DNA of 64,000 bases from Halobellus sp. LT62 (lineage in GTDB: Archaea; Halobacteriota; Halobacteria; Halobacteriales; Haloferacaceae): the NCBI RefSeq assembly GCF_037031285.1, contig NZ_JAYEZO010000001.1:496001-560000 (forward strand). The letters are read 5' to 3'. Below are positions 21,343-44,562 of this stretch, piece by piece. A program made the position numbers and the translations under genes. The notes under the pieces were generated by a model. It saw nothing but the letters and a program-made list of their open reading frames with translations. It was not told where the DNA came from and searched no databases. Positions within the stretch are counted from its first letter, which is position 1, and each line of letters begins with the position of its first letter.

Positions 21343-21427
21343 TATCGTAGCGTTTGCAACAGATTACACACCCGATCGTACGCTGTCTGTACGATCGAGT
21401 GCGTGAAGACTTGCAAACGCTACTATA
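21343..21427. repeat. Palindromic element, copy A
   Basis: An 85-bp intergenic element. The outer arms at 21343-21359 and 21411-21427 are complementary over 17 bp with one mismatch and contain GCGTTTGCAA. Inside, CGATCGTA (21373-21380) and TACGATCG (21390-21397) form a perfect 8-bp stem around a CGCTG-containing loop. Two more copies exist at 25945 and 43166. The right arm runs into TACTATATC, a TATA-like box about 29 bp before the hydrolase ATG, so the element may supply that promoter. Confidence 0.85.
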
Positions 21428-25944: not shown

Positions 25945-26028
25945 TATCGTAGCGTTTGCAAGTCTTCACTCACCCGATCGAACGCTGTCGTGCGATCAGG
26001 TGAGCAATCCGTTGCAAACACTACGATA
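25945..26028. repeat. Palindromic element, copy B
   Basis: An 84-bp element. The outer arms at 25945-25961 and 26012-26028 are complementary over 17 bp with one mismatch (G-T type on one strand). The inner stem pairs CTCACC (25969-25974) with GGTGAG (25999-26004), and GATCG (25976-25980) with CGATC (25993-25997), around a loop containing AACGCTG. It lies between the HD gene promoter side and the 3' end of the surface-protein gene. Confidence 0.85.
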
Positions 26029-43016: not shown

Positions 43017-43416
43017 CGGGCCCGGCCGTCGTCCCTCGGTCGGGTTCGATCCGTTCTCGATGGCGTACAGTCGGCACCCGCAGCGGCCGCGACGTCCCGT
43101 CTCAGCGCCCCGTTTCGGTCGCCCGGACGTCTGACCGCGCTCGTCCCCGCGTCGACGTGCCGAGCCTCACCGCGTTTGCAAGGCTGCAGCCATCGGTCGC
43201 ACGCTGACGTTCGATCAGATGCAACAACAGTTGCAAACGCGGTGAGACCGCGGCCCGACGCGGAGTGATCCTCACGTCACGGGGGCGTTGGCCGCGGGTT
43301 GGTACATAAACGTTCGTCGCCGGTGCGGTCGTCGCCGCTTTCGACCCGGTTCGACGTTCCGGGGGAGGCCGCCGGAACCCCCGCGCTTTTGCTCGTGCCG
43401 TCCCGAGGGGACCCCG
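43017..43416. other. Intergenic region holding palindromic element C
   Basis: A 400-bp gap between the MFS gene and the glycosyltransferase. The palindromic element occupies 43166-43246. A GCTTTTGC stretch at about 43385 is 28 bp before the glycosyltransferase ATG and may be its TATA box. GTACATAAACG near 43303 is another candidate. I see no gene in it. Confidence 0.55.
43166..43246. repeat. Palindromic element, copy C
   Basis: An 81-bp element whose outer arms (43166-43181 and 43231-43246) are perfectly complementary over 16 bp, reading CTCACCGCGTTTGCAA. The inner part pairs CATC-GGTCG with CGATC-A-GATG (one bulged A and one G-T) around a loop with ACGCTG. Only the GCGTTTGCAA part of the arm is shared with copies A and B; the arm end differs on both sides together. 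Confidence 0.85.
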
Positions 43417-44562
43417 ATGGAGTACGTGCAATCGCGGGTGACGACGCTCCACGACCTCGTCGACCCGCTGCCGACCGCGCCGACCGACCGGACGGCGGTC
43501 GTCGTGCCGGTAGCCGAGCGCGAGTTCGAGACGCCCGCCGCAACCCGGGTGTTCCGCGTTCTGGAAGGTCTCGACCCCGCTCGGGTCGTCGTTCCGCTTC
43601 GTGCGACTCCCGACCGTATCGGGCCCGTCCACGAGTGGCTCTCCGGGTTCGACCTCGACCTCGATCTGCTGTGGTGTGACGGATCGCGAGTCGCGTCGCT
43701 GCTGTCTGACGTCGGTCTCGACGGCGAACGCGGCAAGGGTCGCGACGTGTGGCTCGGTCTCGGTCGCGCGGCCGACGAGGAGTTCGTGGTCGTTCACGAC
43801 GCCGACACGGTGACGTACGACGAGTCGTTCGTTCGACGGCTGCTGTTTCCCCTCACGCGCGGCTACGACTTCTCGAAGGGCTACTACGCCCGGGTCGAGG
43901 ACGGCCGCCTCTACGGGCGGCTCTTCCGACTCTTCTACGCCCCGCTGGTCCGAGCGCTCGTCGACGCCAACCCCGATCCGTACCTCAAATACCTCGACGC
44001 GTTCCGATACGCGCTCGCGGGGGAGTTCGCGGCGACGGCCGAGACCGCCCGCCGTCTCCGCCCGCCTCGGAAGTGGGGGCTCGAAGTCGGGACGCTCGGC
44101 GACGCGTTCGACGTTGCCGGCTTCGACGGCACCGCACAGGTCGACCTCGGCGTCTACGAACACGACCACCGCGCGGTCGGCGGGTCGACGGGGCTCTCGG
44201 ATATGAGCCGCTCCGTCGGTGAAACGCTTCTACGAGGCGTCCTCGAACACGGCGTCGACGTCGACTTCGCGACGCTCCGAGAGCGCTATCGGGACGCGGC
44301 GGAGACCCTCGTCGAGCAGTACGCGCTGGACGCGGCGTTCAACGACCTCGAATTCGATCGGGAGCACGAACGCTCACAGGTGGCGGCGTACGCCGATGCG
44401 ATCACGAAGCCGTCGCCGACTGACAATCGACTGCCGGCGTGGAACGAGACGCCGCTCTCGGCGGACGCGCTCGCGGCCGCGGCCGCGGCCGACGTCGACG
44501 AAGCGACGAATACGAGACACGGCGGCATCGCCGCCGCCGACGCGGGGGGCTTCGGCGAATGA
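43417..44562 (+). CDS. GT81/GpgS-like glycosyltransferase
   Basis: A 381-aa GT-A-fold enzyme. The metal-binding DAD is at residues 128-130 (VVHDADTVTYDESFV), followed by FSKGYYARVEDGRLYGRLFRLFYAPLVRAL, which recalls glucosyl-3-phosphoglycerate synthases and related GT81 enzymes. ALAGEFAATAE and KWGLEVGTLGDAF are also in the usual order. It might make a glucosylglycerate-type compatible solute or another glycoside. An Ala-rich tail ends the protein. Its stop overlaps the next gene as ATGA. Confidence 0.85.
   Translation: MEYVQSRVTTLHDLVDPLPTAPTDRTAVVVPVAEREFETPAATRVFRVLEGLDPARVVVPLRATPDRIGPVHEWLSGFDLDLDLLWCDGSRVASLLSDVGLDGERGKGRDVWLGLGRAADEEFVVVHDADTVTYDESFVRRLLFPLTRGYDFSKGYYARVEDGRLYGRLFRLFYAPLVRALVDANPDPYLKYLDAFRYALAGEFAATAETARRLRPPRKWGLEVGTLGDAFDVAGFDGTAQVDLGVYEHDHRAVGGSTGLSDMSRSVGETLLRGVLEHGVDVDFATLRERYRDAAETLVEQYALDAAFNDLEFDREHERSQVAAYADAITKPSPTDNRLPAWNETPLSADALAAAAAADVDEATNTRHGGIAAADAGGFGE

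Follow-up and report, generated by a model that had tools for sequence, protein, structure and literature searches.

The window analysed here, a stretch of 64,000 nucleotides from the genome of Halobellus sp. LT62 (G000), contains palindromes at positions 21343-21427, 25945-26028 and 43166-43246 (copies A, B and C, Table 1), each of them where the first-pass annotation had placed it. Copies A and B represent the common form of the element (type 1), which starts with TAGTAGC, ends with GCTACTA and is flanked by TA, with the layout [TA]TAGTAGCGTTTGCAA...TTGCAAACGCTACTA[TA]. Copy C belongs to a second, divergent subtype (type 2, CTCACCGC...GCGGTGAG). The family consensus is TA-TAGTAGCGTTTGCAACTGATTGCTCATCCGATCGCACG-nnnn-CGTGCGATCGAGTGAGTGAAGACTTGCAAACGCTACTA-TA, in which an outer stem of 17 bp, the TA counted in, is separated by a small internal loop from an inner stem of 18 bp closed by a loop of 4 bases. 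As the inner arms are not identical (CTGATT... and ...GAAGAC), the element has an orientation, and these asymmetric arms place copy A on the plus strand and the other two copies on the minus strand. The earlier statement that the copies always have the same orientation is correct for the CGCTG loop of the three copies but not for their arms, and the orientation of the loop itself varies across the family.

Table 1. Features of the three palindromic elements in the window and of the repeat that hosts copy C.
Feature	Position	Strand	Remark
Copy A, type 1 MITE body, 81 bp, TCGTAGCGTTTGCAA...TTGCAAACGCTACTA	21345-21425	+	Empty site GAGCTATCCC in H. rufus (G009)
Copy A, left TA of target duplication	21343-21344	.	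Compared with the empty site
Copy A, right TA of target duplication	21426-21427	.	Compared with the empty site
Copy A, loop region ACGCTGT	21380-21386	+	Family loop found in both orientations
Copy B, type 1 MITE body, 80 bp	25947-26026	-	Reversed relative to copy A
Copy B, left flanking TA	25945-25946	.	
Copy B, right flanking TA	26027-26028	.	
Left half of the repeated hairpin (CCCCGCGTCGACGTGCCGAGC) hosting copy C in its loop	43145-43165	.	
Copy C, type 2 element, 80 bp inserted, CTCACCGC...GCGGTGA(G), no TA duplication	43166-43245	-	Exactly absent in G009 and G005
Right half of the copy C host repeat: hairpin arm, conserved CTCACGTCACGGGG, TTGGCC, TATA-box-like TACATAAAC	43246-43312	.	Upstream of a predicted gene starting near 43417

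The family extends far beyond the three sites originally described. Within the window, GCGTTTGCAA occurs 8 times when up to one mismatch is allowed, against 1.7 occurrences expected, and none of 100 shuffles reached 8. An exact arm pattern matched the complete genome at 20 places, and the reversed control pattern at none. A covariance model was built from these 20 places; the search of this genome and of its relatives with such a model, a check proposed in the first-pass annotation, detected at least 65 distinct places in the 3.23-Mb genome (E<0.01, both strands merged). Copies were found in 12 of the 17 genus genomes, in 49 of 148 genomes of a family-level sample, and in 82 of 194 genomes of a class sample, the last corresponding to 30 of 65 genera. 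Hosts include Halobellus inordinatus, H. rufus, H. clavatus and H. rarus, as well as Haloferax mucosum, Hfx. gibbonsii, Hfx. denitrificans and Hfx. prahovense. Plasmids of Halobellus limi, Haloferax mediterranei, Halorubrum, Halostella, Halomicrobium and Natrialba also carry the element, with 26 places on a single 505-kb plasmid of Hfx. mediterranei. One genome (G014), which we take to be that of Haloquadratum walsbyi, gave no R1 match. Copies from other families are the same element of about 84 columns, with the ends TATAGTAG...CTACTATA. The viral and phage collections contained no exact or similar copy, and a literature search for the core sequence returned only papers on unrelated subjects. 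We are apparently dealing with a large, previously undescribed family of elements of about 80 bases that encode no protein and are found in many haloarchaeal genera.

With genes called by simple codon usage, 118 of 120 examined copies were situated outside predicted genes. The neighbouring gene pairs were tandem in 54 cases, convergent in 25 and divergent in 20, which is close to 2:1:1 and indicates no preference for orientation. Copies in LT62 depart from the consensus at between 4 and 30 of its 84 positions, and the family has therefore long been present. At several points of the genome, clusters of two or three copies span no more than a few kilobases (G000:C2:726286-729698, G000:C1:581984-584832 and G000:C1:33704-35898).

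Comparison of orthologous spacers, another of the proposed checks, revealed that copies A and C are exactly missing in H. rufus (G009). At copy A, GAGC[TA]TCGTAGC...GCTACTA[TA]TCCC in LT62 corresponds to the empty site given in Table 1, so that a single TA in the empty site is present as two in the filled site. The same was observed for three copies nested in a second palindromic repeat, L105 and L043 (CCTCA[TA]GATTTC) and L101 (AAATC[TA]TGCGGA). One TA becoming two is a hallmark of IS630/Tc1-mariner elements. The orthologous spacers of G009, G006 and G012 contain no copy B, and as these spacers have diverged and align poorly, a clean empty site is not available. With copy A and the nested copies sitting at a duplicated TA, the common type is a MITE with TA target duplication: the elements are short, multi-copy and non-coding, have terminal inverted repeats, duplicate their target (type 1) and possess ends related to those of an autonomous transposon, the relation to IS630-type ends being one of moderate similarity and not identity. 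Among the readings offered at first, that of a REP/MITE-like unit proved right in its MITE form, considering the exact empty sites, the TA duplication, the dispersal and the IS630-like ends. We also noted a third palindromic repeat, ATAGGGATTATCGTAAGTCCTCATAGATTTCTCGCC..GGCGAGA..., with a MITE landing site at its TA (L095 394-479 and 6343-6420, L092 2788-2888, L102 7765-7864, L043, and L049 at about 3039).

Haloarchaea of the taxonomic family to which LT62 belongs carry a 1,059-bp IS630 (Tc1/mariner) element that encodes a DDE_3 transposase, is flanked by TA and has the ends TAGTAGnCrTTAGAAnTArTTGCTCA. This element (L134, L144 and many of L184-L211) shares with the MITE the TAGTAG ends, AA at positions 14-15, TTrCTCA at positions 20-26 and the TA target. 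It differs in encoding the transposase, in having TTAGAA in place of TTGCAA, and in not being palindromic over its whole length. The left end of the MITE, TAGTAGCGTTTGCAACTGATTGCTCA, shares 19 of 26 positions with several IS630 left ends, and the right end, TAGTAGCGTTTGCAAGTCTTCACTCA, 18 of 26 with the right end of the L211 element, while overall the ends match at only about 16-21 of 26-28 positions. When only positions 7-26 were considered, omitting TAGTAG, none of the 2,112 TA sites of the window reached the score of the left end, and a single one reached that of the right end. Shuffling the letters of the ends gave an equally good match in 30 of 20,000 (0.15%) and 126 of 20,000 (0.6%) cases. 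Among the 17 genus genomes, 11 gave a DDE_3 match. No IS630 transposase was detected by DDE_3 match anywhere in the LT62 genome, in agreement with the earlier remark that no transposase is nearby, and its MITE copies are therefore probably stranded. An autonomous element with TTGCAA-type ends was not found; at genus, family and class level, the IS630 loci have ends of the TTAGAA type or similar ones, and the absence of a partner with a TTGCAA-type end is the main gap in the IS630 link. The lack of a detected IS630 transposase in LT62 also counts against this link; a partner in the same genome would be an aid, though old copies do not need one. Further points against the proposed origin are that copy C and its three sisters show no TA duplication, and that copy B lacks a clean empty site. 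Among the IS630 loci, L134 (1438-2452) and L140 (1438-2451) have the transposase in two overlapping or adjacent frames, which would fit programmed frameshifting, and at L265 an IS630 copy from another taxonomic family appears to be inserted beside or inside a MITE-like TAGTAGCCACTGCAAG... element.

Taking these results together, we regard it as very probable that the family is a non-autonomous, fully palindromic haloarchaeal MITE that inserts at TA with duplication of the TA, most likely moved in trans by an IS630-type enzyme. The transposase (Tc1/mariner type) would recognize ends of the form TAGTAG.....TTGCAA..TGATTGCTCA, and would since have been lost from the LT62 genome. GTAG close to the ends and the hairpin shape also recall REP-like single-strand elements moved, as PATEs are, by a Y1 transposase (IS200/IS605, RAYT), and IS605/PATE elements are numerous in haloarchaea (PMC3119063). 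We nevertheless consider this route very improbable: the family has true terminal inverted repeats whose sequence resembles IS630 ends, and the TA duplication disfavours it for type 1, since insertions of IS605-type elements and PATEs give no duplication (PMC3119063).

The pairing of the arms is real and covarying. The 17-bp terminal arms are paired in 96.9% of cells, and for the three window copies either strand gives a much stronger fold than shuffled sequences do (z -4.6 to -8.3). Among 30 diverse copies, 91% of cells pair, and compensatory changes occurred at 22 of 35 stem pairs, amounting to 86 compensated cells where shuffles gave 22.7; the signal was lost when the partner was shifted by 1-3 columns. 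In the outer stem, compensated cells numbered 32 against 10.9 expected in the LT62 genome and 21 against 1.9 in other genomes. Such conserved pairing, with compensation in both stems and stable folds, is what would be seen if the element were a structured or cis-acting RNA hairpin, for instance a terminator or an RNase III-type processing site, maintained by selection and spread by duplication. We consider this unlikely. Both strands fold similarly, the loop is unconserved and found in both orientations, the adjacent gene pairs show no preferred orientation, and insertion with TA duplication accounts for the dispersal. The family has no match in Rfam, where the only match above the gathering score in the window was a tRNA. 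The structured RNA suggested at the outset thus found nothing specific in its favour, and secondary RNA effects of individual copies are possible. A role as terminator was dropped, as there was no enrichment between convergent genes in the simple codon-usage gene calls; attC/integron sites were likewise dropped, the copies being dispersed and single and the order of boxes wrong.

The loops point to another origin of the covariation. The commonest loops form reverse-complement pairs: ACAG (21 copies) and CTGT (13), CAGT (16) and ACTG (14), and ACGG (3) and CCGT (7). ACAG is not easily changed to CTGT by substitution, but can be by inversion. Homogenization of the arms together with inversion of the spacer has been described as the mark that template switching leaves at inverted repeats (PMC8794818, PMC8604942), and gene conversion between oppositely oriented copies would give the same trace. 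By either route covariation would be expected without RNA function, and its presence here need not mean such a function. We presume that the palindrome is kept by copying arm from arm, either by a template switch at the hairpin or by gene conversion from one copy to another, and not by selection for an RNA.

A cruciform or palindrome bound by a DNA-binding or nucleoid protein would agree with the nearly constant TTGCAA core within Halobellus palindromes and with the more than 60 dispersed copies. The core, however, varies with full compensation among clades (CGTTTGCAA, AATTTGAAA, CAACTGAAA, CCATTGAAA), which a fixed site would hardly allow, copies are missing at orthologous sites of close relatives, and the anatomy is that of insertion and duplication; we give this explanation very little credence. 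For the family, action as an RNA or as a binding site is no more than a candidate role.

Type 2 is represented in LT62 by four copies (C, L012, L016 and L165) with the ends CTCACCGC or CTCGCCGC. Each of these copies occupies the loop of one repeated hairpin, CCCCGCGTCGACGTGCCGAGC^nACCGCGGCCCGACGCGGGG, with a conserved stretch and a TATA-box-like TATATAAA following the hairpin. None shows a duplicated TA, and the insertion point of L016 is 1-2 bases away from that of the other three. Type 2 was not recognized in the other genomes of the genus, where the sole end matches, at 2 mismatches, were single arms. The near-identical insertion points in the loop without TA raise the possibility that type 2 inserts by a hairpin-loop-directed route without duplication, as for SMR-A of Haloquadratum, which is about 110 bp long, has inverted ends and inserts without duplication into near-terminal palindromes of PATE/IS605 elements (PMC3119063). 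This is conceivable, but we do not favour it: there are only four copies, the 86% agreement of copy C with L012 over 173 bp means that the composite may have been duplicated as a whole, and type 2 is possibly a TA insertion whose ends changed later. Type 2 may instead be a decayed TA insertion copied along with its host repeat. We also observed a second dispersed repeat, which includes the host of copy C and consists of a hairpin CCCCGCGTCG...CGACGCGGGG, a conserved CTCAnnTCACGG, CTGGCC and, at constant spacing, the TATA-box-like TATATAAA; TGGCGAACAGTCGGCACCCGC often lies farther off on the opposite side. It has many copies per Halobellus genome (window 43145-43312 minus 43166-43245, L117 2785-2960, L119 2770-2970, L049, L177, L068 and L004) and looks like a repeated promoter-linked element.

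Several known repeats resemble the family. ERIC and REP of enterobacteria are also dispersed intergenic palindromes, but are unrelated in sequence; REPs are not known to duplicate TA and are tied to Y1 transposases. RUP of pneumococcus combines an IS630-type link with a TA target. Bacterial MITEs of this kind, linked to IS630/Tc1-mariner elements, are, as here, short, palindromic, intergenic and gene-less, nest in other repeats, insert at TA and have ends related to an IS630-type element. The present family differs in being archaeal and palindromic over almost its whole length, and in that its end sequence changes between clades while the arms stay complementary. RUP, BOX and SPRITE have been found to cluster together (PMC10969869). 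SMR-A and SMR-B of H. walsbyi (HqIRS40-43, 55; PMC3119063) are likewise gene-less, 80-110 bp long, with inverted ends and tens of copies, and resemble type 2 in sitting in the palindrome of another repeat without duplication. Compared with the published descriptions of the SMRs, type 1 differs in duplicating TA and in its IS630-like ends, whereas SMR ends were reported to be unrelated to any transposon (PMC3119063).

Judging from the sequences, the elements are best classified as a new MITE family of archaea, linked to IS630 through the TA target and the ends. They look like ordinary parasites that borrow the enzyme of another element, and appear to constitute an abundant, class-wide haloarchaeal repeat absent from Rfam and the open literature searched. 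With stem compensation and loop inversion countable in dozens of copies per genome, the family offers a natural archive of the persistence of long palindromes, and cautions that covariation by itself is no proof of a functional RNA. It is a rather speculative proposal that the whole-length palindrome is part of the life cycle, through rewriting of arms and loop, and that the subtype of copy C evolved insertion into the loops of other hairpins in the genome without duplication. If true, it would supply a class of mechanism for the unexplained 'small mobile repeats' of haloarchaea, on which the family provides a concrete lead.
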